Positions 973 to 34,906 of a DNA stretch of 36,685 bases are shown in pieces (the stretch's first letter is position 1; each line of letters starts with the position of its first letter). This DNA is from a virus: IMG/VR virus record IMGVR_UViG_3300037264_006101, positions 1 to 36,685 of that record. The stretch is one strand, 5' to 3'. Under the pieces are notes generated by a model. That model did not search any database. It had not been told where the DNA came from and saw nothing but the letters and a program-made list of their open reading frames with translations. Position numbers and translations under genes: made by a program.

Positions 973-2064
973 TCACCAGACCCACGGACCGCCCTGGCGC
1001 ATGCCGCGACGGTTCCGTTCGTTCGTTCCGCCGCCAGCGGGCTTGCCTGGCGGGTCCGCCTCCGGCCTGCTGCCCTGCGGCACCGGGGTGGAGGACAGCT
1101 CGGCGACGCGCGCAGTCATCGTGTCGAGCCTCTTCATCAGCTCGGCCAGCTCGGGCACGTCCTCCTGCATCTTCTTCCCGGCCTTGCCGTCATCGGGCGA
1201 GCCGCCGCTGCCGATGTTGCCAAGCTCCGCGGCCGGCTTCGGATCGGGCGTCTGCGGAGTCGACTCCTCGAGTCGCTTCTCGGCGGGCGGAGGAGCCGCC
1301 GGCTCGACCTCCTCGAGGATCTTCATGAAGCGAGCGAACGCGTCCTCGAGCGACTTGATCGCATCCTTGTAGCGGACGAGGCGCCCGCCGGACAGCTTGC
1401 GCTTTTCCACGTCGTCCTCGGCCGGTGGCGCCGGAGTCGCAACCTCCGACGGCTGGGCCTCTGGTGCCGCCGCGGCGCCAACCGCGTGCAACGCGCCCTG
1501 GTAGTCCGAGAGGAACGAGAGGACCTTTGCCGACTCGTCCTTGGTGATGGTTCCCTCGCTCTTGATCTCGAGGGCCATGGCGCCGAGCTGCTTTGCCAGG
1601 TCGGCGAACCGCACGCCAGCGCCCTTCGCCATCGCCGTCTCGGACGGCTCCGCGGAGACGGGCGACGGGTAGCGACCGAGCGCCCCGGAGAGCAGGTCGC
1701 ACAGCGCCTTCATCTCCGCGCCGATCTCCGCGGGCACGGGCTCCGCCATCTGCTCCTGCGTCTCCTCCGCTTCCTTGATCATGTTCGTCAAGGAGACTCC
1801 GCGCTCGAGCACCTCGGTGAGGACGCGCAGCAGCCCCTCCTTCACCGGCGTCGGGATCGGGCCCTGCTTCGTTTCCGCGACGGGCGTCTGGGTGTTCTCG
1901 TCCATTGTCTGTCCTCCGAGGGTCTTCTTGGCGTTCTTCACAACGAGGAAGCGGCGGCGGTTGGCGGCGCGGTCGACGTAGCTCACTTCCTCGACGAGGA
2001 TGTCACGGAGACGAAACTTCGCCTCCTCCTCCTCCTCGCCATCATGCTCCTTGTCGGTCGCCAC
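973..2064 (-). CDS. Scaffold-like head assembly protein
   Basis: It probably acts as an internal scaffold or protease-associated assembly factor. The 363 residues start at GTG 2064. An acidic N-terminus (DGEEEEEAK) leads into LRDILVEEVSYVDRAANRR and FLVVK, a short element I associate with phage protease/scaffold proteins near residues 18-43. The rest is rich in Ala, Glu, Pro and Lys with predicted helix, for example VKEGLLRVLTEVLERGVSL and VPELAELMKRLDTMTARVAE, and has no recognisable enzyme motif. It lies between the protease fusion and the capsid gene, where a scaffold is expected. A strong ribosome site precedes an in-frame Met at residue 54, so a shorter form is likely. The stop at 973 is 57 bases from the capsid start. 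Confidence 0.8.
   Translation of the reverse strand: MATDKEHDGEEEEEAKFRLRDILVEEVSYVDRAANRRRFLVVKNAKKTLGGQTMDENTQTPVAETKQGPIPTPVKEGLLRVLTEVLERGVSLTNMIKEAEETQEQMAEPVPAEIGAEMKALCDLLSGALGRYPSPVSAEPSETAMAKGAGVRFADLAKQLGAMALEIKSEGTITKDESAKVLSFLSDYQGALHAVGAAAAPEAQPSEVATPAPPAEDDVEKRKLSGGRLVRYKDAIKSLEDAFARFMKILEEVEPAAPPPAEKRLEESTPQTPDPKPAAELGNIGSGGSPDDGKAGKKMQEDVPELAELMKRLDTMTARVAELSSTPVPQGSRPEADPPGKPAGGGTNERNRRGMRQGGPWVW
1913..1917 (-). promoter_or_regulatory. Internal ribosome binding site for a shorter scaffold form
   Basis: GGAGG on the minus strand sits 7 bases before an in-frame ATG at 1905, inside the scaffold-like gene. The full-length GTG start at 2064 has a weaker site, so the internal start (MDENTQTPV, 310 residues) may give the main product. 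Confidence 0.5.
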
Positions 2065-2119: not shown

Positions 2120-5100
2120 TTACTCCTTCGCGGCCGCCCCAAGGGCCTCCTTGAGGGCCGTGCCGCCGATGGAGTAGCCGTCGAGCGAGCCCTCCTTCAC
2201 GAGCGCCCAGACCTCGTCCGGCCCCGCCCGCGTGGCCAGGAACCAGGTGCCGACCGGGAACTCCTCGCCGCCGTGAACCTCAGCAACCTTCGACACGTAG
2301 CTCTCGAGGACCTTGATCCCATCGAGAGGCCTGCCCCGGTGCATGATGCGCATGGAGCCGCCAAAGTGCTCGAGGAACGCGTGGGCAGCGCTCCTCACCG
2401 TGGCTGCGTCGTAGATGTCGCCCTGCGCGTCAACCTCGTCGGGCACCAGCACCACGCCGAACACGTATCGCTCCTCCGTCTGCGCCTCCGGCGAGTCGCT
2501 CTTGAGAAGGCGCACTGGGCGCACGGCCTTCGCCACCGCGTGCTCTCCCGGCTTGAGCAGCGCGAGCGCCTCACCGACCGTGCTCGGTCGCGCATCGACG
2601 ACCTCGAGCGCCTGCGCGGGACCGAACCACGTGAGCGTGTGCGCCACCGCGTCGGAGTGCAGGAACTCGAGCGCCTCGACCCGGATCACGTCCCCAACGC
2701 TCGCGTCGAGCTTGCGGTTGCCGGTCACGCCGACGACGACCCACCGATCGCCGCCGTGCTCGACGGTCTCGGCCCACTCGCCGTCGCCGTCCCGCAAGGG
2801 ACCGATCGCGCCAGTGAAGGTGTAGACGCCAGGTGAGCCCTCCACCTCGTGCCTGGCGACGACGAGCGCCCGCAGCTCGCGCACGAGCTTCACCTTCGCC
2901 CACAGGTCGTTCTCGCCGCCGAGGCTGATGGTGGAGCCGACCTGCTTGAGCATCGCTCCCTCGCTGCCAGGGGCTGCTGCGGCCTCGCGCATCGCATCCA
3001 GCATATCGGCTCGCGTCCTCACGACGACCGCTGGACCGAGCACGATGTGCTTCATCTCGTGACCCTTTGCCCATGTCTCGAGAACGGACCTGCGCTCGGA
3101 GAGCGGAGCCGAGGTCAGGTTCCCGGTCCCGCTGGCATACAGCACGTCGAAGACGACGAAGCGCAGGGCGCTGTCGTCCGGTGCATTACCGCGCAGGTCC
3201 GCCAGCTCTCGGCGCGGCTTGTAGCCACCGCCTTCCGCGGCCTCCATCATCTCGCCGTCGAGGATGATGTCGCCCGGAAGCGCGAGCAGCTCGGCTTGGA
3301 ACGATGGCCAGCGCTCCAGCAGGTTCACGTCGGGCGAGTCCTCCGTGTACGCCATCGCGCCATGGTCTCCCCACCGCTGGACGATTGATCGAAAGCCATT
3401 CCACTCCGGCTCCACCTGCACGCCGGCCGCGACCAGCTCGTCCGTGAGCGCCTCGTGCGCAGCCTGCTCGACGTCTCGGAAGGTGTTGGCGTCGCGAGCC
3501 GCTGGCTTCGTCGGCGCGAAGATGGCGGGAGGGCGCAGCGCGTCCCGATCGCCGCCCTTGTCGTCGGAGTCAGAGCGGTCCGCCGGGTCCCACACCTGCA
3601 CGTCGCCCTGCATCCTGTACCGCTTGGCCACCGCGCGGCCAGGATCGGCGCCCGGAGCCAGCAGCCAGATGTCTCCATCGGCCTCCTCCGCGACGAGCGT
3701 GTGGACGCCGCGCAGCTTCTCGCCGTCGAAGCGAACCCGGAGCAGCCGCCCAGGCTCGAGGTCGAGCACGTCCGCGGTGCCGCTCTCGAGGATCGTGGTG
3801 TGAGACGGCGTCGCCTTCGTCGGGTTCAGAACGATTCCGCCGACGCGCGTGCCAGGAGGGGTGTCGCCATCGAACGAGAGCAGCTCCGGGCCGCCCTCCC
3901 GAACCAAGGCAAGAACCTGCGGGTCGCCGGCCAGCGGATCGGAGTGGAGCTGGTAGTCCCACACTCGCCTCTCTCCCGGCTGGCCGATGATGAGGTGGAA
4001 CACCTCGCGCCCGACGCCGCGGACGACGGTCTGGCCCTTGAAGCGCTGCCACGTGAGGACGAACGACACGATCTCCTTGGTCACGCTCGCGGCTCCTGCG
4101 CGCTTCTGCTCGACGAGCGCGAACTCGCCGTCGATGACTGCGACGTTGCGCTCGGTGAACACGCGCGCCTCGACGAGCGCGTCTCGGACGGAGCGGGCCT
4201 TGGCCTCGGTCGGCTCGAGCCAGAACCTGTACTTCCTCGGCGTCGCCACCATGAGCGACTCCGGCATGGCAGAGTGCCCGAGCGGCGGCATCGACTTCGT
4301 CTCCACGGCGCGCGCCGTCAGCACGGACGGCAGGACGACCTTCGCGAGACCGACGGTCCAGAAGGCGTCACCGGGCGGTGCCTGGCTGGCCTCCGGTCCC
4401 TCGTCCACCGCCGCGTCGCCCACGAGCAGGCGGAACACGAGTCGCCCGGAGAGTCGCGGGTCGCCGCTGAGGAAGTACTCGTGCGAGAAGGGCTTCTGCA
4501 GGCCCCACTCGACGTCGGGCGTGGCCACCGCGACCATCACGCCCTTCTCGTTGCGTGTGGCGCCGACCTCGCCCTCGCCGAACACCTCGCCGACGACGTC
4601 CAACCACGACGATGGCTGGCGTAGCTTGGGCTCGGCGAACACGCGAGACGGGAGCAGTAGCGGCTTGTTGTACCGCCCTCCATCGACGGAGAAGTCATCG
4701 GCGATCGCACGCGCTTGCTCGACGGTTGTCACGGACGGCATCACGTCGGGTTGTTGGAGCGCAAGCGTCCAGCCGACGAGATAGTCGCGAACCTGCATCC
4801 GCAGGTCCCCATGAAGCGAGCGGCCACGCATGTGATACTGGAACACGGCTCGGCGCTTGCCAGGCTCCGCCGGCCAGTCGAGGTGCGGATCGTCCGCCTT
4901 CGCCGTGAGCCGCATCTCCTTCAACTCGCGGTCCTCGTGCGGCACGAGGCATAGGTCGTACAGCTTGATGAAGCTGGTGAACGGTCCGCCCATCGCGTCG
5001 TGGTGGAAGCTCAGGCGCCTGCTGGCCTCCGCCTCGAGCGCGCGACCGAGCCTGAACTTGATCACGTGCAGCGTCTCCTCGTCCATCGGACCTCGGATGA

Positions 5101-6919
5101 GCACGTCCACGTCGTTGCGCGTCAGGCCGTCGTTGCACACGCTGCCGACCAGGCACACGGCCGCATCTCTGATGCGCATCGGCTTCTCGTACGCGGAGAG
5201 CAAGGAGGTCAACTCCAGCGGCTCCAGCGTGCCCGGCGTCCCGGCATGGATCGGGGCGAAGCGATCGCGCTTCCACGCGGCTGACTCCTCTGCCAGCGCA
5301 TCATCCTCCGGCGACAGGACCTCGCGCGACGCTAGCTCCCGCAGCAGGAGGACGTGCGCGTTCACGAGGTCCTCGCGCGACGTGGAGCCGTCGGTCACCC
5401 GGTCATTGCCGGAGAACTCCGCCTCGAACCACACGTGCATCGCGCGGTCGAATGCGCGCAGGTCGTCGGACGATGCATCGACGAGCGCCTCCGGGCTCGG
5501 ACCCGCGACGAATCGCTCGAGCGCGACCTGGAGCCCGTCCTGGAACACCTTGGAGAACGGGAGTCCGAGCTGCCGCACCTTCTCCACGTCCGCGCCGAAG
5601 TCGATATCCCCGGCGAACCTGCGACCGGGCACCGCGGCTCGCAGCTTGAGCGGAGGGTCGAAGCTGACGAGCAGCTCCATCGGCATGTAGAAGAATGGGG
5701 CGATGGTGCTGTACTCCTCCAGGCTCGCCGCATCGATGCCCGCACGCAGCTCTTCCGGGACCGCGCCGAGGTCCTCGTAGCCGATCGGATCGCCGTACTG
5801 GACCACCGCCCACACGTAGGCGTCGCCCTGCCCCGAGACCTCGTTGACGAGGGCCTGCGGCTTATGGGCCCGCCCCACGCGGCGCACGCGGGAGAAGAAG
5901 CCGCTCGGCTCCCCGGCACGGAGCCGCGCGATGTTGAACTGCGGGTCCGGCAGCTTGAGCGCCGGGAGCGTTCCCGTGGGCGGCTCTGCCTTCCAGATAA
6001 CCTCCACGCCCTCATCCACGGCCCGCTTGCACAAGGCTCCGATGGCGAGGTCGGTCATGGCGGCCATCATCGGAGCCGGCGGAGAGTCGCCAAGCTCGCT
6101 CGGTCGCGACCCGAAGAGTCGCCACAGCTCAGCGGGGGTCAGGCTGACGAGCACGGTTCCATCATCCAGCTCGTGGACGTGGACGTGGACACCGCTGAAG
6201 TCCGTGTTCTCGACCTGGATGCCGTGGGCGTGAACCCCATCCTCTCGCGTCCACCTGACCTCGTTGTCAGGGCCGAGGAGCGCGTGAGCATGGCTGCCGT
6301 CGTCGAGGTCCGTGAGCGTGGCATCGGGCGACGGGAACGAGTGAGCGTGAGCGCCATCAACCTCTGTCACCCATACCTCGAAGTCGCCGTCTGCGCCCTT
6401 ACGATGGAAGTAGTGCTTGTGCCGCCCATCCTCGTGCGTCACGAGCTGCGGCCTAGATACGACGTGGACGTGGATGCCGCTCTCGGCCTCGCCGGACGGG
6501 AGGCCCTTTGCGGTCGCCTCTGCCATCCCGTGACCTTCCTCACAACGCGAGAACTCGGAGAGGTGCGAGGCCACCCTCGGCGCATCGGCCGCAAGCTCCT
6601 CGAGCACAGAGCCGCCCCTCGCGACGGCGGGCAGCAGCGACGCGAGCGCAGACGCGGCCTCCGGCACGCTGGCGTACTCGCCCGGGACCACTGGACCCGC
6701 ATTGAGCTCGAGCCTCACGGCGGCGAAGAACGTCTGCATAGGGCCGAGCGCGGCAGTGGCAGCCGTCACCCCGCGCCTGCGCTTGCACGTCTCGGCGAAT
6801 GCCGGGAGCGCCCTGAGCAGGTACTCCGCGGCGCGCGCCGCCGGCTCCGGGTTCGGGCGCGAAGACTTGAGCACGCTGGTGGCCGCATCGATCGCCTGCT
6901 GGGTGCGCTGAAGGTCCAT
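2120..6919 (-). CDS. Giant prohead protease fusion: HxH repeats, nucleotidyltransferase, LigD-like PE and ligase domains, XkdF-like protease
   Basis: This is a 1599-residue multidomain protein. Residues 1-145 are helical and 148-253 hold HxH repeats. Residues 581-661 show a Pol-beta nucleotidyltransferase signature (GS, nine residues, DVDV; later LYDLCL). Residues 689-723 (SLHGDLRM) and 1011-1091 (GEKLRGVHTLV, WLLAPG) resemble the LigD 3'-phosphoesterase, split by about 290 residues. Residues 1131-1441 follow an ATP-dependent DNA ligase (ILDGEMM, FVVFDVLY, EGAMLK, WAKVK, then an OB-like region), but motif I reads EPEWNGFR, not EPKWDGFR. Residues 1466-1599 look like XkdF-type prohead protease (YVFGVVLVPDEVDAQGDIYD, KEGSLDGYSIGG). 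ATG 6919 was chosen because GGAGG lies 9 bases upstream; ATG 6928, in an ATGA overlap with the preceding gene, is the alternative. The protease presumably trims scaffold and capsid; roles of the other domains are unknown. Confidence 0.88.
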   Translation of the reverse strand: MDLQRTQQAIDAATSVLKSSRPNPEPAARAAEYLLRALPAFAETCKRRRGVTAATAALGPMQTFFAAVRLELNAGPVVPGEYASVPEAASALASLLPAVARGGSVLEELAADAPRVASHLSEFSRCEEGHGMAEATAKGLPSGEAESGIHVHVVSRPQLVTHEDGRHKHYFHRKGADGDFEVWVTEVDGAHAHSFPSPDATLTDLDDGSHAHALLGPDNEVRWTREDGVHAHGIQVENTDFSGVHVHVHELDDGTVLVSLTPAELWRLFGSRPSELGDSPPAPMMAAMTDLAIGALCKRAVDEGVEVIWKAEPPTGTLPALKLPDPQFNIARLRAGEPSGFFSRVRRVGRAHKPQALVNEVSGQGDAYVWAVVQYGDPIGYEDLGAVPEELRAGIDAASLEEYSTIAPFFYMPMELLVSFDPPLKLRAAVPGRRFAGDIDFGADVEKVRQLGLPFSKVFQDGLQVALERFVAGPSPEALVDASSDDLRAFDRAMHVWFEAEFSGNDRVTDGSTSREDLVNAHVLLLRELASREVLSPEDDALAEESAAWKRDRFAPIHAGTPGTLEPLELTSLLSAYEKPMRIRDAAVCLVGSVCNDGLTRNDVDVLIRGPMDEETLHVIKFRLGRALEAEASRRLSFHHDAMGGPFTSFIKLYDLCLVPHEDRELKEMRLTAKADDPHLDWPAEPGKRRAVFQYHMRGRSLHGDLRMQVRDYLVGWTLALQQPDVMPSVTTVEQARAIADDFSVDGGRYNKPLLLPSRVFAEPKLRQPSSWLDVVGEVFGEGEVGATRNEKGVMVAVATPDVEWGLQKPFSHEYFLSGDPRLSGRLVFRLLVGDAAVDEGPEASQAPPGDAFWTVGLAKVVLPSVLTARAVETKSMPPLGHSAMPESLMVATPRKYRFWLEPTEAKARSVRDALVEARVFTERNVAVIDGEFALVEQKRAGAASVTKEIVSFVLTWQRFKGQTVVRGVGREVFHLIIGQPGERRVWDYQLHSDPLAGDPQVLALVREGGPELLSFDGDTPPGTRVGGIVLNPTKATPSHTTILESGTADVLDLEPGRLLRVRFDGEKLRGVHTLVAEEADGDIWLLAPGADPGRAVAKRYRMQGDVQVWDPADRSDSDDKGGDRDALRPPAIFAPTKPAARDANTFRDVEQAAHEALTDELVAAGVQVEPEWNGFRSIVQRWGDHGAMAYTEDSPDVNLLERWPSFQAELLALPGDIILDGEMMEAAEGGGYKPRRELADLRGNAPDDSALRFVVFDVLYASGTGNLTSAPLSERRSVLETWAKGHEMKHIVLGPAVVVRTRADMLDAMREAAAAPGSEGAMLKQVGSTISLGGENDLWAKVKLVRELRALVVARHEVEGSPGVYTFTGAIGPLRDGDGEWAETVEHGGDRWVVVGVTGNRKLDASVGDVIRVEALEFLHSDAVAHTLTWFGPAQALEVVDARPSTVGEALALLKPGEHAVAKAVRPVRLLKSDSPEAQTEERYVFGVVLVPDEVDAQGDIYDAATVRSAAHAFLEHFGGSMRIMHRGRPLDGIKVLESYVSKVAEVHGGEEFPVGTWFLATRAGPDEVWALVKEGSLDGYSIGGTALKEALGAAAKE
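6161..6478 (-). repeat. HxH repeat tract in the protease fusion
   Basis: About 106 codons hold five spaced copies of an HxH unit, four preceded by Asp-Gly: DGRHKHYF, DGAHAHSF, DGSHAHAL, DGVHAHGI and the variant SGVHVHVHEL, after an initial GIHVHV. The spacing of roughly 20-25 residues and alternating His suggest stacked beta-hairpins, possibly metal-binding; the metal idea is inference. Confidence 0.75.
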
Positions 6920-6924
6920 CTCGG

Positions 6925-7248
6925 TCATCCTCCCCAGGCGCGGTCGGCCGGCGCCGGCGTCCAGTCTACTCCATCGAGCCGTGCTCGTAGCGCCACTGGG
7001 AGTGCGTCCAGGGCATGGGTGGTCGAGTATCCGCACTCGGCCCGCAGCAGCATGAAGCAGTCGTAGAGGATGGCCGTGCGCCGCTGCACCTCCTGAGCGG
7101 TCATGTGGCGCAGGCTGCCGCTCCGCATGTCCGCCACCACGCTGTCGCGCACGATGTCAGCGAATCTCGCGGTCACGCGCCCGGCCTGGATCGGGTCCCC
7201 GAGCGAGCTGACCAGCACCTCGTGCCTGCTCTTGGCGATGTTGCTCAT
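6925..7248 (-). CDS. Small protein of unknown function between head genes
   Basis: This 107-residue mostly helical protein begins MSNIAKSRHEVLVSSLGDPI. No family was recognised. It has a repeated hydrophobic pattern (FADIVRDSVVADM, RRTAILYDCFMLLRAECG) and no Cys cluster or membrane segment. Its stop overlaps the ATG at 6928 of the protease fusion, so the two are probably co-translated. Position between the MuF-like gene and the protease suggests a head assembly or connector role, but nothing in the protein proves it. Confidence 0.75.
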   Translation of the reverse strand: MSNIAKSRHEVLVSSLGDPIQAGRVTARFADIVRDSVVADMRSGSLRHMTAQEVQRRTAILYDCFMLLRAECGYSTTHALDALPVALRARLDGVDWTPAPADRAWGG

Positions 7249-7278
7249 GGCGGCGGAGCATACTTCCGCCGGGCCGAC

Positions 7279-8499
7279 TCACAAGACGGGCATGAGCGTG
7301 CAGCGACAGCCCTCGTGGGCCGGGGGCGCCGTCACGCCATCCGTGGACCGCGTGCGCGTGATCGTCTGGTAGTTGCCAGGGACCCCGTTCTCGTCCCTCG
7401 AGAAGCGAGCCACCGGCGTGTCCGGGCCTCTCACGTAGATGGTGTCGCCGCGAACCCCGTAGAACCGCTGCTCGGCGATCGCCTCCTCGGGCGTCCGCGC
7501 AGTGGCGGCCCGATCAAACCGCCCCATGGTGTCGTACGTGCTGAATATCTGCCCGTTCATGTAGACGCAGACGGCGCAGGTAGCCTCGTCCATCGTGGCC
7601 GACCACTCGTAGGCGCCGATGCCGCCGTCGCGGAACCCGCTGACCTGGCCGTAGCTCCTGGCCCGCGTCATCGCCACGTTGGCCACGGTGCGGAAGTAGG
7701 CCTCCGTGCGCCCGCGCACTCGATGCGAGAGCGCCTCGTACAGCTCGCGCCCGATGGTCTGCGAGTCGAGCCCGCTCGAGAGGCCTGCGCGAATGATCGG
7801 CGATGCATCCTTGGCCCACGCCGCGGCCCGTCGCCCGTACTCGTTCGACACCCAGAAGGCATTGTCGCGCCCGATGCGCCGCACCGCCGCCGTGTCCTGC
7901 ACGTTCAGGAGCGCGCGCACGCCTGAGCGCCTGGCCGCCTTGCGCGACTCGGCCGCGACCTTGACCGCCCGGTCCGCGAGCCGGCCCGTGAGAGCGGCGG
8001 TCATGTTGGACGAGCGCGCGAGGCCCATGATGGCCCGCGACACCTCCGCGATCCTCTCCTCGCTCGCAGCGGGCGACAGGCGGATCCACTCCCGCTTGAG
8101 CATCCTGGCGGCGCGCTCGAGTGCCTTGCGCTCCGATGAGCGCGCGGTGCGAAGGAGCGAACGATGCACCCCGTCGACGATGCGCGCGAAGTCGCGCCGG
8201 TTGAGCGGGCTCCTGGCCTTGCCTAGCTGCACGATGCTCTGCGGTCTGACGTACAGCCACGAGCCAGAGCGGAGCTGCACCTTGCCCTTGAAGATGAGCG
8301 AGGTGCCATCGCCGGCTGCTGCCAGCCTGACGGCACGCGCCGCAGCCTCCTCCGGGCAGCTCGCAGCCTCCAGCCTGCCTATCGACGGGGCAATGGCCGT
8401 CCAGCCCGTGCAGGCAACGAACTCGGCCGGGTCCTCGTCGAGCGACCTCGGCTCGAGGATGAGGCGCCAGGGCGGCCCGGCGACGGCTACCCGATCCAC
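7279..8499 (-). CDS. MuF-like phage head morphogenesis protein
   Basis: This 406-residue minor head protein is likely to bind the portal and the inside of the capsid. The C-terminal half carries the signature of the Mu gpF / SPP1 gp7 family: YFRTVANVAMTRARSYGQ, then WSATMDEATCAVC (Cys 308 and 311) with NGQIF, ending in PPAHEGCRCTL (Cys 398 and 400). The paired CxxC and CxC are typical of this domain. The N-terminal 150 residues are divergent. The start is GTG 8499 with a poor ribosome site and a 13-base overlap with the upstream gene, so a later start is possible. Its position after the portal agrees with the family. Confidence 0.88.
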   Translation of the reverse strand: MDRVAVAGPPWRLILEPRSLDEDPAEFVACTGWTAIAPSIGRLEAASCPEEAAARAVRLAAAGDGTSLIFKGKVQLRSGSWLYVRPQSIVQLGKARSPLNRRDFARIVDGVHRSLLRTARSSERKALERAARMLKREWIRLSPAASEERIAEVSRAIMGLARSSNMTAALTGRLADRAVKVAAESRKAARRSGVRALLNVQDTAAVRRIGRDNAFWVSNEYGRRAAAWAKDASPIIRAGLSSGLDSQTIGRELYEALSHRVRGRTEAYFRTVANVAMTRARSYGQVSGFRDGGIGAYEWSATMDEATCAVCVYMNGQIFSTYDTMGRFDRAATARTPEEAIAEQRFYGVRGDTIYVRGPDTPVARFSRDENGVPGNYQTITRTRSTDGVTAPPAHEGCRCTLMPVL

Positions 8500-9110
8500 G
8501 TCCGCTTCGCGACGCGCTTCGCCGTCGGCGACTCGAGCTCAACGTAGTTCACGTCCGCGTCCTCGAGCCCGCAGTCACCTCGGCTCGCATGATCATCGCA
8601 GAAGGCCCGAAGCAGATACTTGTTGGCGTCGACAACCCTGCTGAACCCCTCGCGGGAGTACTCCGTCAGGATTCGGTACACACGCATCGCTTCCTTCGAG
8701 CAGCCGGGCTGTGAGCACAGCTCCCCATCGAGGCGATCGAGCGCGCGCCTGTAGCGCTCCTCCGCCTTCTCATCCGAGGCGCACTCGCCCAGCGTCTCGA
8801 GCAACCACGCCAGTGCTAACGCCGCCGTCCTCACGTTGGCGGAGCCGGCCTCCGCGATCAACATTCCCTTGCAGAGAAGCTGCGTGAGCGCAGAGACGCG
8901 CCACTCATCGCCGCTCATGTCACTGGTCTTCCAGCGAGGCACGGTGATGATGCGCACCTCGTCGATGCACTCGTGATCCTCGTGTGGCTTCCACCACGCG
9001 GAGGTGGCCGACTCTGGCACGCCCGGAACGTCGAGCGCCCGGCGCTTTGCTACCAGCACGCGCCCGGACTCGAGTCTGTCCGGCAGCGACTTGCGGACCA
9101 GCTCGCGCAT
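8487..9110 (-). CDS. Unknown protein in the portal-head cluster
   Basis: This 207-residue protein starts at ATG 9110 (MRELVRKSLPDRLESGRVLV) and shares bases with the preceding stop (TGATG). No family was recognised. It is Cys-rich towards the C-terminus (LCSQPGC, FCDDHASRGDCG), which could bind zinc. The centre has helical stretches (VRTAALALAWLLETLGECAS, ERYRRALDRLDGELC). The position between a portal-adjacent small gene and the MuF-like gene suggests a minor structural or assembly role, which is inference from order only. Confidence 0.78.
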   Translation of the reverse strand: MRELVRKSLPDRLESGRVLVAKRRALDVPGVPESATSAWWKPHEDHECIDEVRIITVPRWKTSDMSGDEWRVSALTQLLCKGMLIAEAGSANVRTAALALAWLLETLGECASDEKAEERYRRALDRLDGELCSQPGCSKEAMRVYRILTEYSREGFSRVVDANKYLLRAFCDDHASRGDCGLEDADVNYVELESPTAKRVAKRTWIG

Positions 9111-9514
9111 CAGGTCACCCGAGCACGGTCGCGGGTCCCGCTGACGACCACGATGTCCACCGTGATGGCCGTACCAAGAACGATGGTCGTGACTCGGAAC
9201 GAGACCTCGTGGCCCCGCGACGGGATCGTGGCGAGCACGTTGTCGGTCAGCCCGGCGACCGCGGTCAGCTCGCGCCACACCTTCCCGGCCGCAGCATCGT
9301 AGACGGCGATGAGCGGCGTGATGCTCACGCTCGTCCCGTCGGTCACCTCGCCGGCCACGTCGCGGAAGATAGGCGTGACCTGGACGTCCTCCCACTCGCG
9401 AGCGTCGAGCACGTCGAGCCCGCTCGGATCGGTCGGGAGCCACGTTCCGAGGTCCGCTGCCGCCAGACCGGTGCGCACCACTGCGGAGCCGTCGGTGTTA
9501 TAGAGTCGCTGCAT
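9110..9514 (-). CDS. Small beta-rich protein next to the portal, possible structural protein
   Basis: The 134 residues begin at ATG 9514, with GGAGG six bases before it, and overlap the portal end by 17 bases. The sequence is beta-rich and poor in Lys (SVSITPLIAVYDAAAGKVW, VSFRVTTIVLGTAITVDIVV). This resembles a small virion decoration or head-fibre-like protein more than an enzyme. No named family was recognised. Its start inside the portal gene implies coupled translation at head assembly. Confidence 0.75.
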   Translation of the reverse strand: MQRLYNTDGSAVVRTGLAAADLGTWLPTDPSGLDVLDAREWEDVQVTPIFRDVAGEVTDGTSVSITPLIAVYDAAAGKVWRELTAVAGLTDNVLATIPSRGHEVSFRVTTIVLGTAITVDIVVVSGTRDRARVT

Positions 9515-11294
9515 CGTCGTCCTCCACTCCAGCCCCAGCGTACCTGCGAGCGGCCTCGACCGCACGCTCCAGCTTCTGGCCCTCGCTGCCCTTGCGGTCA
9601 TCCACCGCCTGCTGGGCCTCGATCATGATGTCGCGCAGCCGGTCCTGCCGAGCTGACACCGCCTCGTCGTCCTCCGGCATGATGCCGGCCACGGTGATCG
9701 GCAGCGGCTGCCTGGCGAACGGGCGGTCGAACGGCGGGAGCTCCACTCCGAGCACCTCGCTCATGATGCTCCGCGCCTCGTTGGGCGTGATGATCGCGGC
9801 CTTCGTCAGCTTGTCCGCCGCGTCCACGATCGACTCGAGGTCGCGGGTGCGCGGCCCGAGGCTCTTGAACTCCACGAGCATGATGCGCATCTCGGGGAGG
9901 ATCACGCGGTTCATGAACGCATCGAAGTCGTTGCGCTCCGGCTCGAACACCTGCTCGTCGGCGAACTTCAGCGCGCTCTCGCTTGTGGCGCGGTTAAAGT
10001 CGCGCGAGTCCCCGCGCAGTAGCCGCGGGAGGCGGAAGCTCGAGCCGATCTTGTCGATGTTGCGCTCGTCGTACTTCTGGAAGAGGGCGTCGCCCTGCTG
10101 CGCATCCACGAGCTTCTCGAACTTCAGGCGCGGCACCACGCCGCTCTCGCCAGGCGTCATCTCGTCGCCGGAGTTGACGGCCTCGATGATGAGCACCTTG
10201 TGGAAGTTCTCGCGCCCCTTCGCACGATCTCGGAAGTGCGACTCGATGCGGGCCACGCTTCCCTCGGTCAGCTCGGCGCCCGAGACGAGGAGCGCCATCG
10301 GAGGGATCGCCTTGTTGTCGAAGTAGTCATAGTTCACCTCGTCTGCCGCCCTCGATCCGAGCACGGACAGGAGGTTGCCGATCCAGCGCGGCGTGCCGTA
10401 GGCGCTGCCCGCGTCGTCGATCTTGAAGTGGATGATCTCCGTTGCCGGCCGGTCTCCCTTGCCTGCCTTCGCCTGGAACTCGGCGAGGTCGGCGTACACG
10501 GCGCCCGTCTGCTGCGAGATCACGCGCGGGTCGCCGAACTGCTTGAACCACGTCACGCGCCGCCCCACGCACTGCACGTAGCGGCGGAAGTAGCGGTGCT
10601 GCCTGATCGGCTCCAGCTCCACGAGCCCCAGCGGGACGCGGTCCTCCACCAGCGTTGAGCAGCGGTCGAGGAGCGTGCAGCGCATGTGCGCCGGCGGCAC
10701 GAGGACGAAGCGCGCCAGGTCGCCGCCCTTGCTCCTCAGCACCTCCCAGTAGGCGTTGCCGGTGACCTCGAGGTCCTTGCGCGTCCTGGTGCGGAGCGCC
10801 ACGAACGAGCCCTCCGGGTTGACGCTGTGCAGGAACGAGTCGAGGCGCATGCGCTCGAGGCGGCTGCGCTTCACGAGGCGCCCGATCTCCGCCTCAACCT
10901 GGAGGTCCTCGGGCTCGAGGGCGTCGAGGTCGTCGAGCCTCTCGCCCGCGCGCTCGGTCGCCCGGACCGCCGAGAGCCACAGCGACTCCTTCACCTCGCT
11001 CCAGGCATCGTCGCCGTCGAAGTCGACAACGGTCTTGATGCGCCACCCCTGGCCGTCGATGTTCGTGGCGTAGGCCTGCACGTTCTGGTTCAGGCTCGAG
11101 CTGTTGTCGGCGATCCGCTTCAGCGTCTCCGGGTCATAGTCCGGGTCGACGATGCCGGAGCCGAGGAGCGACGCCAGAACATCGTCGTCCTGCACGGAGG
11201 CCGGCGAGGTGATGGTCGCCCCGAGCTCGGACGCCTTGACGATGAGCTTGCGAGCGGCGCGCCTCAGTGATTCGGGTTCCTGCACGCCAGCCAT
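9498..11294 (-). CDS. Phage portal protein, PBSX-like
   Basis: This forms the dodecameric portal ring at the capsid vertex through which DNA enters. ATG 11294 was chosen because the product (598 residues, MAGVQEPESLRRAARKL) has a normal portal length. The N-terminal region has YDPETLKRIADNSSSLNQNV then QAYATNIDGQGWRI, matching the PBSX-type portal pattern of wing contacts. The core contains YGTPRWIGNLLSVLGS and IPPMALLVSGAELT, strongly portal-like. The C-terminal part has KLTKAAIITPNEAR and ends in charged helices. It heads the structural cluster but is separated from the large terminase by about 10 kb of other genes, which is unusual. Confidence 0.9.
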   Translation of the reverse strand: MAGVQEPESLRRAARKLIVKASELGATITSPASVQDDDVLASLLGSGIVDPDYDPETLKRIADNSSSLNQNVQAYATNIDGQGWRIKTVVDFDGDDAWSEVKESLWLSAVRATERAGERLDDLDALEPEDLQVEAEIGRLVKRSRLERMRLDSFLHSVNPEGSFVALRTRTRKDLEVTGNAYWEVLRSKGGDLARFVLVPPAHMRCTLLDRCSTLVEDRVPLGLVELEPIRQHRYFRRYVQCVGRRVTWFKQFGDPRVISQQTGAVYADLAEFQAKAGKGDRPATEIIHFKIDDAGSAYGTPRWIGNLLSVLGSRAADEVNYDYFDNKAIPPMALLVSGAELTEGSVARIESHFRDRAKGRENFHKVLIIEAVNSGDEMTPGESGVVPRLKFEKLVDAQQGDALFQKYDERNIDKIGSSFRLPRLLRGDSRDFNRATSESALKFADEQVFEPERNDFDAFMNRVILPEMRIMLVEFKSLGPRTRDLESIVDAADKLTKAAIITPNEARSIMSEVLGVELPPFDRPFARQPLPITVAGIMPEDDEAVSARQDRLRDIMIEAQQAVDDRKGSEGQKLERAVEAARRYAGAGVEDDDAATL

Positions 11295-11304
11295 GCTACC
11301 ACGC

Positions 11305-11568
11305 TCACGACTCCCAGGGAGACCCCCGGCGACGCGGCCTGCGCGGCCTGCGCCCGCCATGCTCCCGCAGCATGCCCTTGCCGACCTCGCACCCGGCGCA
11401 GGTGCTCAGCGCGACGTCACCGCCGGAGGCGACGGCGACTCGATGGCGCTGTGCGCAGGACTGCTCCGATAGCGTCGCCGAGAGCGGCCCGCACCTGAAG
11501 TACCCGAGCGATCGCGGGTCGAGCGAGGCCATCGCGCGCTCGCCGTCGACTACCGGCAGGCAATGCAC
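11305..11568 (-). CDS. Small Cys-containing protein, putative zinc binding
   Basis: This 87-residue product begins MHCLPVVDGERAMASLDPRS. It carries YFRCGPLSATLSEQSCAQR and STCAGCEVGK, a spacing that could form one zinc site, and ends in a very basic tail (RRPRRPRRRG). It overlaps the upstream gene by 19 bases and stops 10 bases before the portal start. Similar Cys-bearing small proteins are common in early phage regions. Function unknown; nucleic-acid binding is a guess based on the tail. Confidence 0.68.
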   Translation of the reverse strand: MHCLPVVDGERAMASLDPRSLGYFRCGPLSATLSEQSCAQRHRVAVASGGDVALSTCAGCEVGKGMLREHGGRRPRRPRRRGSPWES

Positions 11569-12121: not shown

Positions 12122-13474
12122 CTACTGATCACTTGCATTCTCCAGCACGGCGCGGACATGCGCTGCAATTGCCCGCATAAACATGGGCGGGACCGAGTTA
12201 CCACAGACTGCCCAAGCATCTGCCCAGTCCTTGCGAGCTGCCCCAGATTCAGGAAACCGATACTCGTCTGGAAACGAGCAGAGTCGCATCACCTCGCCAA
12301 CGCTAAGCCCACGCGGCTTATCGTGGGTACTTAGGAAAACCAAATCATGACCGAAGCTACCATAGCTCCGTACAGTTGGCGATGAAGTGCTTGGATCCAC
12401 GGTCTTGGCAGACTTGCCTGGCATGAGCTTGCTTGCAAGCTCCTGGAACCGCTTGCTCAGCGCTGGCGATTGCAGGTAATTCGAGCGTGGGCGAACCATG
12501 AGCCACATGAGACCGTTGAACTCTGCCGTCTTGGTAATCGATGGGCTTGGTCGGCTTGGATCGACGATCTGACGATCTCTCCATGAGCCGTCGCGCCGAT
12601 GCTGACTACCGTTCTCTCCTGGTCTCATTCGCTCAGCAAGTTTGGCAACAGTTGCATGCAGGTCGGGCGCCTGCATGCATGCATCCCGGGCCACATACGA
12701 ACCGCTGCTCTTACTCAGAACTCCTGCCGCGTCTCTCTGAACGTCGAACGCCTTGTTGTGCGGTTTCCAATGCGACCCAGGTGCCCTCTCTCCGGCCACG
12801 TGTGCGAACCCACCAAGCCACGGGCATGCGTAGCCCACGCTGATCGGCTCTCGTTCTGCAATTGGATGACTCGGATCAATGCACAGATCCTCACGCAGGC
12901 CAATAAAGATGACCCTTTTTCTTGACTGCGGCACGCCAAACCATTTTGCATCAAGCAGTCTGCAGGACACGCGGTATCCACAGGCCTTGAGTTCTCTTAG
13001 CGCCTCGCGAAACACCCAGCGCATCTTTCCCTTGACCATGCCGGAGACGTTCTCCATCACAAACGCCCTGGGCCGAAGGCCAGCCAGCAACCGAGCATAC
13101 TCCTTGAACAGAGAGTTGCGTGGGTCTGTCAGGTCGCGCTTTCCAGCGGTCGAGAATCCCTGGCACGGAGGCGAGCCATCCAGCACATCCAGCTCTGATG
13201 GCCCAAGGCGAGCCATCGACAGCGCATTATCAACAGTGAGCTTGGAAACGTCTCCCTCGTAGACGAGTGTGTTTGGAAAGTTCAACCGATATGCTGCGGC
13301 TGGATACTTTGCCCACTCCACTGCCAGTCTTACGTCATAGCCCGCAGCACGATAACCCATGGAGCTCCCGCCGCCTCCGGCAAAAAGAGACACCACGGTA
13401 GGTGAATGCGGCTTGCGCCCTGCGACCATCTCCCTCCACGCAACAGACAGCTCTTGCCCGTATGGATCGTTCAT
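12122..13474 (-). CDS. DNA (cytosine-5-)-methyltransferase
   Basis: It transfers a methyl group from S-adenosylmethionine to C5 of cytosine in a specific site. All key motifs are visible in 450 residues: SAM binding VVSLFAGGGGSSMGYRAAG (27-45), catalytic PPCQGFS with Cys 104, ENV (141-143), QSRKRVIFIG (183-192), and the final GNSVPP (425-430). A variable target-recognition region lies between about 210 and 340. Length and order are normal, so it should be active. No restriction enzyme gene is nearby, so it is an orphan, probably protecting phage DNA. Codons here are richer in A and T than in the flanking genes, which suggests recent transfer. It follows the ParB-like gene by four bases. Confidence 0.93.
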   Translation of the reverse strand: MNDPYGQELSVAWREMVAGRKPHSPTVVSLFAGGGGSSMGYRAAGYDVRLAVEWAKYPAAAYRLNFPNTLVYEGDVSKLTVDNALSMARLGPSELDVLDGSPPCQGFSTAGKRDLTDPRNSLFKEYARLLAGLRPRAFVMENVSGMVKGKMRWVFREALRELKACGYRVSCRLLDAKWFGVPQSRKRVIFIGLREDLCIDPSHPIAEREPISVGYACPWLGGFAHVAGERAPGSHWKPHNKAFDVQRDAAGVLSKSSGSYVARDACMQAPDLHATVAKLAERMRPGENGSQHRRDGSWRDRQIVDPSRPSPSITKTAEFNGLMWLMVRPRSNYLQSPALSKRFQELASKLMPGKSAKTVDPSTSSPTVRSYGSFGHDLVFLSTHDKPRGLSVGEVMRLCSFPDEYRFPESGAARKDWADAWAVCGNSVPPMFMRAIAAHVRAVLENASDQ

Positions 13475-13478
13475 GGTG

Positions 13479-14156
13479 CTAGACCGGCACGTCGCCGTTG
13501 CAGTGCGGGCACTTCACAACCTTAACGTCATCGGCAGCTGCTTCCCCAAACTCAGGAAAGACTGCCTGGTTTGGGTCTAGCAGTGCCAGCCTATTCTGTT
13601 CTGAAACTTTCAACAGCTCTAGCGAGCGCTCGTTGAAGCCGGTGCTTTGCAGCAGATCGTTTCCAACACCTGCGATGCTGGTGAGCATCCTTAGCAGCTC
13701 CTCATCATTCCATCCGCCTATTTCCACAATTCGATTGTCCGCCAGCAGGTATGCCTCAGCCTCGTCATCGCTCTTGAATGCCACTCCGCGCAGCACCGGG
13801 ATCAGCCACTCGCCGCCAGGGCCAAGCTGTACTCGCTCTGGCGGAGGTCCACCGGCCTGCTTCATCGCTGTCAGGTTCTCGAGCCTGCCGTGACCAGCGA
13901 CCATCTTGCCGGAGCGCTCGTCGATGAGGATGGGCTGCGTGTAACCCCACCGGTTGATCGACTCGCTCAGGGCCGTGTGGTCATGGAGCTTCGGGTTGCG
14001 CGGCCAGCGCTCCAGCTTGGTCAGCGGGATCATGTCGACCCGCATGGTCGGGGCCTCCGCGTTGACTTGCGGCTCCGAGGCTGGCTTCGGCTTCGGCCTC
14101 AGAACTGCCTTGCGCGCAGCCTTGTGATCGCTCTTGGCTGGATTGCTCGTGCCCAC
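13479..14156 (-). CDS. ParB/sulfiredoxin-like domain protein
   Basis: The start is GTG 14156, preceded by GGGAAGGTAG; 225 residues. After a basic, Pro-rich N-terminus come IPLTKLERWPRNPKLHDHTA (residues 43-62), SINRWGYTQPILID and MVAGHGRLENLTAMK (85-99), the hallmark ParB N-terminal nucleotide-binding fold. AEAYLLADNRIVEIGGWND follows as in phage ParB-like proteins. The end carries CPHCNGDV, half a zinc site. In phages such proteins commonly sit next to DNA methyltransferases, as here. It is not a plasmid partition protein by context (no ParA). The exact activity, nuclease or CTPase-like DNA binding, cannot be told. The 3' half is poorer in GC, like the methyltransferase. Confidence 0.87.
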   Translation of the reverse strand: MGTSNPAKSDHKAARKAVLRPKPKPASEPQVNAEAPTMRVDMIPLTKLERWPRNPKLHDHTALSESINRWGYTQPILIDERSGKMVAGHGRLENLTAMKQAGGPPPERVQLGPGGEWLIPVLRGVAFKSDDEAEAYLLADNRIVEIGGWNDEELLRMLTSIAGVGNDLLQSTGFNERSLELLKVSEQNRLALLDPNQAVFPEFGEAAADDVKVVKCPHCNGDVPV

Positions 14157-15446: not shown

Positions 15447-16199
15447 TCATGTTCTCTGTTCCTCGAATTGCATCACTTCCTGGCTGAGTCTCTTGGCTGC
15501 GATTTCGCAGTACCGCTCCTCGATTTCGATGCCGATGGCGCGCCTGCCGGCCGCCTTGGCGACAACGAGGGTGGTGCCGCTGCCGGCGAACGGGTCCAGG
15601 ACGAGATCTCCCTGGCGCGTAGACGCCATGACCAGCGGGCGGATAACCCTCTCCGGCTTCTGGGTTGGGTGGTCTACCTTGCCGGGCTGGCCGTGCCTGA
15701 AATTGTCCGCCACGAACACGTTTGACCGGGGCGCATCCCTGCCTGTCGGCGTCCACGTGCGGCCCGCAGGATAGGCGTAGAGACACAACTCGGCGCCACT
15801 TGGCCACCCAGAGCCAGGGGGGGCAGGAGCAGGGCATTCCTTGACCCAGACGAGAAAGCGCGTGGACATGCCGCTTTTCTCCAGATCTTCCACGAGCGGC
15901 CCCATCTGGCGGTGACCAATCCACGCATAGAGGCTGCCGTTGGGCGCCAGGCGCTCACGTGCGAGAGACATCGCCTCTCGCACGGTGGCAATCATCGTCG
16001 GCCAGTCGTCGTCGCCCTTGAAAAAATCGAGACGCCTAGACCCGTTTCCGGGCCGCCCAACATGCACGGACCCAGAGACCGAGACCGCATACGGCGGGTC
16101 GGTCACAACCGCGCTTACGAGCAGCGGCAGCGCCGGCATAATCTCGCGACAATCGCCGTGATAAATCGCGATGCCAGCGTGCTCGTAGTACGGGGTCAC
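15447..16199 (-). CDS. Beta-class DNA amino-methyltransferase (N6-adenine or N4-cytosine)
   Basis: It methylates an exocyclic amino group of adenine or cytosine in DNA with S-adenosylmethionine. The 250 residues show catalytic DPPY at 34-37 near the N-terminus, HPTQKP at 177-182, and the SAM loop DPFAGSGTT at 202-210 near the C-terminus. Catalytic motif before SAM motif is the beta-class order. Length is usual, and no motif is damaged. The start is GTG 16199 in a GTGA overlap. No partner endonuclease is visible, so it is likely an orphan anti-restriction or regulatory methylase. Which base it modifies cannot be read from DPPY alone. GC is lower than in its neighbours. Confidence 0.92.
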   Translation of the reverse strand: MTPYYEHAGIAIYHGDCREIMPALPLLVSAVVTDPPYAVSVSGSVHVGRPGNGSRRLDFFKGDDDWPTMIATVREAMSLARERLAPNGSLYAWIGHRQMGPLVEDLEKSGMSTRFLVWVKECPAPAPPGSGWPSGAELCLYAYPAGRTWTPTGRDAPRSNVFVADNFRHGQPGKVDHPTQKPERVIRPLVMASTRQGDLVLDPFAGSGTTLVVAKAAGRRAIGIEIEERYCEIAAKRLSQEVMQFEEQRT

Positions 16200-21704: not shown

Positions 21705-23747
21705 TTAGTTGGCCCCGACGCGCAGCGCCATCTCGGCGAGCCCGGCCGCCACCCGCGCCTCCCCGCTGCCGTCCGAGTGTCCGTTGCCGTTCGGGGGAGC
21801 GTCGACGCGGCGCCTGCGCTCCCGCCTCCGCAGCTTCCTGCGCACCATGCGCGCCAGCTCTCGGGCAAACCACGATGCCATTAAGTGATCGCCCGTATGC
21901 GAGCGCGGATCGTACTGCAGCAGCTCGCGGAGCCACTCCCGCACCTCGTCGTCGCAGTCCCCGCGCACCGTGTCGGCGAAGCACCGGGCGCCCTGGTTCG
22001 GGATGATCCACCGCTCCGCCTCGAACTCCGCCGCCAGGCTCTCGACGCCGAAGGCCGGGTCCACCTTGTTCCTCCCGGTCGTGAATGCGCGCACCGGGAT
22101 CACCACGTCCATCTCCCGGGCGAGCTGCACGATGAAGTCCTGCGCCGCGTTGTTCTCCACCATGAACATTCCGCCGAGGTCGTCGTAGGTGCCCTTCAGG
22201 TTGTTGAGTATCTGCGACGCCTTCCACCGCCCGGCCCGCACGCGCAGCACCTGCCTGTCGTCGTTGGGGTGGATGAACAGGCTGAAGATGACCGACACGT
22301 CGTTACGAGCCAGTTGCCCGACGCCGAGGTCAACCCCGTGCACCACGAAGGAGTCATCCGGGAGCTCGTCGGCCAGCTCCGCGTAGACCGGCACGCCATC
22401 TCCGCGCCGGAGGCACGCGTCGAGCCAGGTGTGGTTGAACCTGCGGGCCTCCTCGTCGTAGGGGCGCAGCTCCATCTGGCGGGCGTACTCGAGGTCGCCG
22501 AAGTCGACGCGCTTCTCCGCCAGGCGCTCCGGCGACCAGCGCCCCGGGTCGACTATGCGGCCCTCCTCGTCCTCGATGGCGCAGCGCTCGGCGGCCCACC
22601 CGTCCTTTTCCAGCTCGTGGGCGAGGTCATCCGGGTGCCAGGCGTTCGTGAGGAGGAGGACCTGGCTGCGCCGCGTGAGTCGGGAGAAGAGGGTGGCGCG
22701 GACCCAGGCGGAGACGGCCTCGCGCTGCGCGGCGGTGCGGGTGTTGTCGGCGTCGAGGATGTCGTCGAGGATGAGCAGGTCGATGCGCGAGCCCTGGACC
22801 GCGCCGTGGAGCCCGAGGGCCTGGACGGTCGGGTCGCGGCTGGTGAGCGGGCGGGCGACGGTGATCTCGTTGTCGGTCCACTTCGAGCCCGGGCGGAGGC
22901 GCGGGAAGATCTCGCGCAGCTCGTGGGACCGCTCGATCATGCCCTTGATGACGCCGAGGGGCTTCTTGGCCTGCTTCTCCGTGGCGCCGATGATGGCGAC
23001 GCGGATGGTCGGGTCCTGGCCGATGCGCATGAGCGTGCGGCCCACTGTTAATTGCGAGGAGTTGTGTGTCACCACGTAGTCGCGCCCTGCCAGGTACGTC
23101 TGGTCCGGCGAGCTGACGCCGATGCAGCGCACGGGGCGCGTAGCTATCCGTCGAATTGACATGACGTTTCGCCATCGTGCAGATCCGGCCGTTGGAATCA
23201 TCCAGCGACCTTTGGCCATCTGCTTCGTGCTGACCACCCGCTCGCGCCCTCGCCTCAGCACGCGATCCGTGGCGCTGCGGGCAACCCACAGGTGGTCGGC
23301 GTCCGCGCAGATGCTCGCCCCGTCGTCGAACTCGAGCCGGTACAGCTCGCGGTCGAGCATGGTCGGAGTCGCGAACGTGACTCGGCAGGTACGCCCGTGC
23401 CGATCGAAGACCTCGTCCCCTACGCCCAGCTCCCCGAGCGCCGTCCAGCCTCCTGGCGTTGGGATCGGCGTGTCGAGCGGGAGCGCCTTCCCACTCTCGG
23501 GAAAGGCCCATAGAACGAAGCGAGCGTGCTGACTTGCGCGCACCTGCCACCGCTCGTGGTGAGGGAGCTGGACGAGACGCTCGCCGGTCTCCTCGTCGCG
23601 CATCACGTACTCGATGAACGTGCTCGGGTCGTGGCGCGCGATGTCCACGCGCTGCCGGCGGTACTCGGTCCACGCCGCCCCCAGGTCCTCGAGCGCCTGC
23701 GGGTCGGGGGCTCCCGGGCTGTCAGCCGACACCCTGGTCCTTGCCAC
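21705..23747 (-). CDS. terL: Terminase large subunit (TerL) with in-frame intein
   Basis: TerL is the ATP-driven motor that packages DNA and cuts it at the head. The 680-residue precursor holds an intein at 88-229; splicing would leave 538 residues, a normal TerL length. The joined exteins restore the P-loop FPESGK-SSQL across the junction. Walker B is LLILDDI (324-330), followed by LDADNTRTAAQREAVSAW; the coupling region is SQVLLLTNAWHPDDL. The nuclease domain starts at VVHGVDLGVGQLARNDVSV, with further acidic motifs downstream, and the C-terminus is basic. The start ATG overlaps the end of the small-terminase gene by 26 bases. Without splicing the ATPase site would be interrupted, so function should depend on it. 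Confidence 0.93.
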   Translation of the reverse strand: MARTRVSADSPGAPDPQALEDLGAAWTEYRRQRVDIARHDPSTFIEYVMRDEETGERLVQLPHHERWQVRASQHARFVLWAFPESGKALPLDTPIPTPGGWTALGELGVGDEVFDRHGRTCRVTFATPTMLDRELYRLEFDDGASICADADHLWVARSATDRVLRRGRERVVSTKQMAKGRWMIPTAGSARWRNVMSIRRIATRPVRCIGVSSPDQTYLAGRDYVVTHNSSQLTVGRTLMRIGQDPTIRVAIIGATEKQAKKPLGVIKGMIERSHELREIFPRLRPGSKWTDNEITVARPLTSRDPTVQALGLHGAVQGSRIDLLILDDILDADNTRTAAQREAVSAWVRATLFSRLTRRSQVLLLTNAWHPDDLAHELEKDGWAAERCAIEDEEGRIVDPGRWSPERLAEKRVDFGDLEYARQMELRPYDEEARRFNHTWLDACLRRGDGVPVYAELADELPDDSFVVHGVDLGVGQLARNDVSVIFSLFIHPNDDRQVLRVRAGRWKASQILNNLKGTYDDLGGMFMVENNAAQDFIVQLAREMDVVIPVRAFTTGRNKVDPAFGVESLAAEFEAERWIIPNQGARCFADTVRGDCDDEVREWLRELLQYDPRSHTGDHLMASWFARELARMVRRKLRRRERRRRVDAPPNGNGHSDGSGEARVAAGLAEMALRVGAN
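23061..23486 (-). other. Intein in TerL P-loop, class 3-like mini-intein
   Basis: The 142-residue insert (residues 88-229) starts with Ala rather than Cys or Ser (ALPLDTPIPTPGGWTALGE) and ends in VVTHN before a Ser. It has block A (TPIPTPGGW), block B (ADADHLW, Trp 154), block F (VRCIGVSSPDQTYLAG, Cys 208) and block G (THN, Thr 227). Ala 1 with Trp, Cys and Thr at these places is the WCT signature of class 3 inteins, which start splicing from the block F Cys. No homing endonuclease domain is present. Family knowledge is from memory. Confidence 0.88.
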
Positions 23748-34610: not shown

Positions 34611-34906
34611 ATCGTCCTCACTTCCGCGACTCGCGCGGAGGCCCACGAGTCCTCCTCGTCCCAGTAGATACCATTGGCCATCCAGTCGAGCACGGTGGTC
34701 AGCCCGGCAACCTTCAGCTCCTCCCCGTCGGCTCCGTACAGCACGACCTCGATGCATGCCACCTGCACGCGATCGCATCGATTGATGCCGGCCGCCACCT
34801 GCTGCAGAAGCTCGGGCACGTTGCGCTCCCACTCGCACCGGCCGCAACGGGCCGACCCGAACGAGGCATCGAACTCACAGCTCTCGCACTTCCTTTGTTC
34901 GCTCAT
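34607..34906 (-). CDS. Small protein with N-terminal zinc-like motifs
   Basis: The 99 residues begin MSEQRKCESCEFDASFGSAR, followed by CGRCEWERNVPELLQQ. CESC and CGRC sit 13 residues apart, a zinc ribbon. Then comes an alpha/beta part (RVQVACIEVVLYGADGEELK, GLTTVLDWMANGIYWDEED). The overlap with the RuvC-like gene is four bases. Function unknown. Confidence 0.73.
   Translation of the reverse strand: MSEQRKCESCEFDASFGSARCGRCEWERNVPELLQQVAAGINRCDRVQVACIEVVLYGADGEELKVAGLTTVLDWMANGIYWDEEDSWASARVAEVRTM

Follow-up and report, generated by a model that had tools for sequence, protein, structure and literature searches.

The general frame for the locus described here is given by the polyvalent proteins (Iyer et al. 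2017, PMC5512222), including the P1 DdrB/DarB and N4 vRNAP types. A precedent is P1 DarA, an internal head protein that the prohead protease trims and that is co-ejected with the DNA (PMC12810830). A mycobacteriophage circularises its genome via NHEJ (Pitcher et al. 2006, cited in PMC3898472); in that case the phage brings Ku and borrows the LigD of the host. In Phaeocystis globosa virus, PgVPolX joins a PolX-like polymerase and a DNA ligase in a one-chain base-excision-repair enzyme (PMC5537341). No description of a fusion of phosphoesterase (PE) and ligase domains with an XkdF protease was found in the literature searched, most subscription journals being outside its scope.

Such a fusion was analyzed here on the minus strand of a virus record of 36,685 nt, the whole of which is referred to as the window. 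The longest open reading frame (7036..2120, minus strand) has 1638 codons and GTG as the first codon. A GGGGAGG Shine-Dalgarno sequence is placed 9 nt upstream of the ATG at 6919, and the 1599-aa model starting from this ATG was therefore preferred; an equivalent Met is found close to the protein start in the relative L006. The extent of 2120-6919 and 1599 aa proposed in the initial annotation, which gave no strand, equals this best gene model. Residue numbers below refer to the 1638-aa frame and are converted to the 1599-aa protein by subtracting 39. From the N to the C terminus, the protein consists of HxH repeats, an ASCH domain, a Pol-beta-type nucleotidyltransferase (NTase), two PE domains (PE1 and PE2), an ATP-dependent DNA ligase core, and XkdF (Table 1).

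Table 1. Coordinates of the fusion gene, its domains, and the head genes in the window
Feature	Coordinates	Strand	Basis or remark
Fusion gene, whole, 1599 aa	2120..6919	(-)	ATG at 6919, stop at 2120-2122
Histidine-rich beta repeats, six HxH motifs	6176..6472	(-)	Motif positions; residues 189-287
ASCH (PUA-like) domain	5576..6004	(-)	AlphaFold model and structural search
Pol-beta-type NTase (G-S ... D-V-D)	4889..5239	(-)	ANMV-1 match and motif conservation
LigD-type 3'-phosphoesterase domain 1 (PE1)	4298..4879	(-)	H-x-R-G ... S-x-H-G-D-L-R conserved
LigD-type phosphoesterase domain 2 (PE2)	3644..4078	(-)	AlphaFold structural match to 3p43
ATP-dependent DNA ligase adenylation domain	2888..3439	(-)	PF01068; motif I Lys replaced by Glu
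Ligase OB-fold, presumed	2552..2887	(-)	ANMV-1 ligase alignment reaches this far
XkdF / Peptidase_S78_2 prohead protease	2150..2482	(-)	PF14550; His and Ser conserved
Scaffold-like gene	973..2064	(-)	Starts with EVSxVDRAANRRRFL motif; phrog_3017 residues 3-33
MuF-like head morphogenesis protein	7279..8499	(-)	PF04233, 2.5e-6, slightly below curated cut-off
Portal protein	9498..11360	(-)	PF04860, 1.8e-21
Terminase	21705-23747		

The C-terminal domain is an XkdF prohead protease by profile (residues 1519-1629, 8.8e-22, 77.9 bits against a curated Pfam cut-off of 24), by active-site residues (His 98% and Ser 95% in the family, both present in the window), and by gene position, while proteolysis of head proteins is inferred. 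The head genes of the window run in the order terminase, portal, MuF, fusion, and scaffold-like gene, and the contig stops short of any capsid gene. The fusion gene thus occupies the usual protease slot, as had been claimed, after portal and MuF and before the scaffold-like gene, whose starting motif is known here as adjacent to, or within, XkdF proteins. The region near the head genes also encodes two more DNA methyltransferases and a ParB-like protein (12122-13474, 15447-16199, and 13479-14156, minus), and a RuvC-like Holliday junction resolvase (PHROG 159, 2e-8) is found at 34903-35685 (minus).

In BLASTP, the ANMV-1 protein AJP62006 matched the PE region (residues 697-1126, 32% identity, 3e-41), the NTase (residues 585-716, 1e-9), and the ligase (residues 1200-1495, 3e-12). 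A PE1 profile of 17 sequences gave five matches in the PDB, LigD 3'-phosphoesterases only (best 5e-5), and Pfam PF13298 was detected in the relative L072 (2.3e-15). The catalytic H ... H-x-D-x-R residues of PE1 are 99-100% conserved in the family and intact in the window. The PE1 assignment rests on profile and alignment, the fold alone being unmatched in the structural search. For PE2 (residues ~989-1131; AlphaFold run on residues 590-1190), the match to the LigD PE 3p43 reached Z 16.1 with an rmsd of 2.3 over 120 residues, and six LigD PEs ranked at the top, followed by a row of only Z 4.3. No H-x-D-x-R signature was recognisable by eye in the PE2 sequence. PE1 and PE2 are detectably related in hhalign (E 1.4e-4, probability 52%). 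The PE region of the window is a duplicated LigD superfamily fold; its activity is inferred.

The NTase belongs to the Pol-beta superfamily by its GS and DxD motifs, which are conserved in the family at 98% (G), 90% (S), 98% (D), and 100% (D). Its PDB search gave 11 matches, every one ASFV PolX, yet these were weak (E 0.2), so that the kinship to PolX remains weak and activity is inferred. The ligase adenylation domain was detected by Pfam in residues 1200-1383 (DNA_ligase_A_M, 1.6e-13, 51.2 bits against a curated cut-off of 26.2), and the motifs III-V (DGE, FDVLY, EGAMLK, and WAKVK) were all found. The nucleophilic lysine of motif I, looked for as KxDG, was not found in the window ligase: the motif reads PEWNGFR, and the lysine is replaced by glutamate (GAG codon at 3404-3406), one base apart. 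This lysine is kept in 51 of the 53 family members with an aligned residue and is present in L003-L005, the closest relatives of the window; glutamate at this site is confined to the window. Judged from sequence alone, the window copy of the ligase is likely dead as sequenced, and because of the glutamate in motif I its ligase step is probably lost or partner-dependent.

At the N-terminal part, the AlphaFold model of residues 357-487 matched 5guq (Z 8.8, rmsd 3.2 over 118 residues), with further ASCH/PUA-like folds in the adjacent rows of the structural search; the ASCH domain is present twice in L004 and L005. The HxH repeat region is common to the window, L005, and L006, and no confident model was obtained for it (pLDDT <50). 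GHxHxL or HxH repeats were also seen in the linkers preceding the ligase in L003-L005, in addition to those at 6176-6472 of the window; a metal-binding beta repeat is possible.

The fusion of a protease with NTase, LigD-like PE, and DNA-ligase-like domains, which the initial annotation had read by eye, is a real single gene, and all four domain names were confirmed through profile or structure searches. Structure searches on segments, proposed there as a check, returned LigD PE and ASCH matches, and the protease and ligase were confirmed by Pfam. The designation LigD-type held only in part: the PE is of the LigD superfamily, but the whole protein is not a LigD because Pfam, searched up to E 1, revealed no AEP polymerase or primase domain and the NTase is instead of Pol-beta/PolX type. 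Features that escaped the initial annotation are the ASCH domain, PE2, the HxH repeats, and the replacement of the motif I lysine in the ligase.

Relatives were recovered with PE alignments in two rounds, yielding 31 and then 46 more viral contigs (77), so that the architecture, sought in other genomes as had been proposed, defines a family and not a one-off. Together with the window and ANMV-1, the set comprises 79 proteins, 70 of them distinct at 95% PE identity. The PE alignment was required, the whole fusion protein giving no match as a query against the viral contigs. No match was obtained in the plasmid search or in a first scan of GTDB genomes; a second scan gave a single contig of a Bacillota MAG (isolate SURF_36) with the order NTase-methyltransferase-ligase-UDG-PE-XkdF. 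Among 50,697 phage records, the PE region was found in ANMV-1 only, and the PE-bearing fusion in no cultured phage. Information on hosts is limited to this MAG and to the uncultured archaeal host stated for ANMV-1. The joins of the window recur in the independent contigs L003, L004, L005, L006, and L096, which rules out a misassembled join or a chance open frame and bears out the earlier judgement that assembly error was unlikely.

Across the 79 proteins, selected for PE by construction, local profiles on Pfam-defined or aligned segments detected XkdF in 63, NTase in 63, ligase in 60, uracil-DNA glycosylase (UDG) in 35 (about half), SAM methyltransferase in 25, D12 DNA adenine methyltransferase in 8, PE2 in 6, ASCH in 5, and Acb1 in 2. 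Pfam on 42 new members found XkdF (32), ligase (30), UDG (20), methyltransferase (14), metallo-beta-lactamase (4), and one each of Acb1, InPase, DHH, and intein. The UDG of one relative matched uracil-DNA glycosylases in the PDB (9e-17), chiefly of type 4. Modules are freely gained, dropped, and reordered among members. XkdF is C-terminal in all 45 complete XkdF-bearing representatives, 44 of which end at most 30 aa beyond it, and a module string without XkdF in the same protein was observed in 12 of the 57 complete representatives. The dN/dS ratio (NG86) was ≤0.40 in every module, in measurable pairs only and with several dS values near saturation. Enzymatic function appears retained across the family, given the almost unchanged catalytic residues and the dN/dS values far below 1 in the measurable modules.

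In the loci listed, genes follow the order terminase, portal, (MuF), module string with XkdF, scaffold-like, decoration, and major capsid, the last three being named by eye from position and start motifs. A scaffold neighbor is claimed for individually inspected loci only, because the scaffold-motif regular expression matched 25 of 45 downstream regions; the remainder are perhaps divergent or missed.

In the PE tree, the window, L003-L009, L096, and ANMV-1 form a clade (100/100) separate from a clade of 57. XkdF follows directly after PE in the large clade and after the ligase in the window subclade, and it is absent from the same protein in ANMV-1, L007, L008, and L009. From this it is inferred that the repair set was joined to XkdF at least twice, and one joining with later domain shuffling is not excluded. 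The unfused modules of L008, L009, and ANMV-1 sit in neighboring head genes, and the PE protein of L008 has a C-terminal MuF-like cysteine-rich segment (by eye).

Individual members carry further modules. Acb1 (anti-CBASS) and XkdF are encoded in one polypeptide at L033:6782-10981 and L089:2-2107 (Pfam 2.6e-22 and 2.8e-33), with both HxT motifs visible in L033; carriage of anti-CBASS activity in the head is a possible inference. Inteins with LAGLIDADG domains split the PE of L092 and L093 at the conserved KLxQP/WL motif, and L093 has an additional intein in the ligase close to motif I. The PE domain is linked to InPase (PF18823) at L090:6296-7948 and to DHH/DHHA1 at L079:7181-9427. In L009, the module set is spread over three genes, and the C-terminal part of the product of 6645-9359 is HipA/PI-kinase-like by motif reading. 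In ANMV-1, L002:1913-3193, annotated as a MutT-like phage hydrolase, is the portal (PF06381, 3e-22), and L002:5868-9368 encodes a 1,166-aa cysteine-rich protein with a MuF-like end.

The reading narrowly favored here, with a probability of about 0.55, is that the protein is a head-targeted polyvalent polyprotein for repair and counter-defence. Its architecture, conserved position, catalytic-residue conservation, purifying selection, and recurrence are shown, while packaging, cleavage, ejection, substrate, and activity are inferred. The XkdF end would recruit the polyprotein into the procapsid together with the scaffold and would probably cut the linkers during maturation, the protease then processing head proteins as usual and the freed cargo modules remaining in the head beside the genome. 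At infection, the modules would accompany the DNA into the cell and there mend or join genome ends that have been damaged or restricted. A division of labour is predicted in which uracil removal falls to UDG, in relatives, cleaning of 3' ends to PE, addition of a nucleotide to the PolX-like NTase, and sealing to the ligase. A head-carried cargo string is the simplest reading to account for the position, the protease fusion, the conserved active sites, the mix of repair and counter-defence modules, and the unfused versions beside MuF. Tethering or release of DNA-end enzymes in the head, raised in the initial annotation, remains the leading idea, with packaging and cleavage inferred.

Against the cargo reading, each protease copy would bring a large load of 1,599 aa into a head whose number of protease copies is unknown, there is no virion proteomics and no cultured phage with the PE-bearing fusion, the window ligase is without its nucleophile, and 12 of 57 complete representatives are without XkdF in the same protein. 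No defensible shared cleavage motif was found in the linkers, where it was sought by eye. A bolder version, which falls a little short of being probable, sees a packaged one-chain DNA-repair pathway (UDG, PolX-like NTase, PE, and ligase), self-released from the prohead protease and arisen at least twice, that would mend the DNA of virions that have aged outside cells, particularly in slow environments such as the subsurface.

The best surviving rival, itself unlikely, is that enzymes tethered to the procapsid by XkdF mend nicks, gaps, and uracils before packaging in the producing cell and are not carried onward. The anatomy would be identical, with protease fusion and late-gene position, the ligase, UDG, and NTase set would be useful on replicated concatemers, and the modules would not need to survive in the full head. 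However, repair in the producer cell requires no head-protein fusion, and the Acb1 and DNA adenine methyltransferase domains that occur within these strings fit the start of infection better.

Structural use of the modules, the alternative offered in the initial annotation, is kept as a minor and quite improbable rival in which they serve the protease as a pro-region, either scaffold-like or inhibitory, and descend from enzymes only incidentally. It is supported by the missing ligase nucleophile of the window, by the apparent catalytic degeneracy of PE2 (by eye), and by P1 DarA, which is proposed to pair scaffolding with counter-defence (PMC12810830). On the other hand, the catalytic residues of PE1, NTase, XkdF, and the relatives' ligase are close to invariant, the modules are reshuffled freely between members, unlike a pro-region, and XkdF functions without them in cultured phages. 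Equally hard to sustain is an ordinary late repair enzyme that shares transcript and frame with the protease, its halves separating after translation and acting independently, which agrees with the XkdF-free genes for the same modules in the head clusters of L008, L009, and ANMV-1, but not with the joining of the repair set to XkdF in two clades with different junctions or with its continued presence among the head genes in unfused form.

Should the modules be carried in the head, as the cargo reading holds, virions would contain their own repair enzymes, which could help to explain the long extracellular survival of phage DNA, and virion-borne DNA repair would become testable. The same fusion or domain set in ~70 related uncultivated viruses suggests that some phages may pack a DNA-repair kit in their particles. 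The prohead protease as a cargo-carrying domain may offer a way of loading enzymes into phage heads, and the module strings indicate where to mine for new anti-restriction and anti-CBASS cargo.

In comparison to known systems, bacterial LigD of NHEJ and archaeal LigD-like phosphoesterases (3p43 and 5dmp) share the PE fold together with an ATP-dependent ligase core in a single chain, whereas the window protein has a Pol-beta-type NTase, no AEP found, a duplicated PE, and an attached capsid protease. The mycobacteriophage likewise applies NHEJ-type end joining to its incoming genome, but it relies on the LigD of the host, whereas here the end-processing modules are located in a head protein. PgVPolX differs in belonging to a eukaryotic giant virus, in its NAD-dependent ligase, and in lacking a capsid protease. 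Plain XkdF proteases (Lactococcus phage 28201, Methanothermobacter phage psiM100, and Pseudomonas phage Roomu-2) also occupy the protease slot with a scaffold segment in the same or next gene, but are ~154-406 aa long and without repair modules. A methyltransferase-XkdF precedent in Lactococcus, suggested by a "DNA methyltransferase" label in PHROG/GenBank, was dropped, as the protein consists of XkdF and scaffold only; the label (L034:3459-4508, phage 28201, PHROG 1530) appears wrong.

A closely related described protein, AJP62006 of ANMV-1 ("ATP-dependent DNA ligase"), likewise unites NTase, ligase, PE1, and PE2, and its gene adjoins those of the portal and of a large protein that ends like MuF; it differs in the order NTase-ligase-PE-PE2, in the absence of XkdF, and in its intact ligase motif I. 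With polyvalent proteins (PMC5512222), the family shares the combination of many unrelated enzymatic domains in a chain encoded within the head genes, a built-in peptidase proposed to free domains, proposed co-injection, and the DNA adenine methyltransferase, 2H phosphoesterase, and InPase domain types. XkdF, DNA ligase, and ASCH do not occur in the main text of that study. The polyvalent criterion of several disparate enzymatic domains encoded with virion genes is met by the window family, while injection is inferred. In polyvalent proteins the peptidase is a zincin, whereas in the window family the prohead protease itself fills this role and the core modules are those of DNA repair. What is new is XkdF as the carrier and a content of UDG, PolX-like NTase, LigD-type PE, and ligase, which corresponds to the steps of base-excision and end repair.
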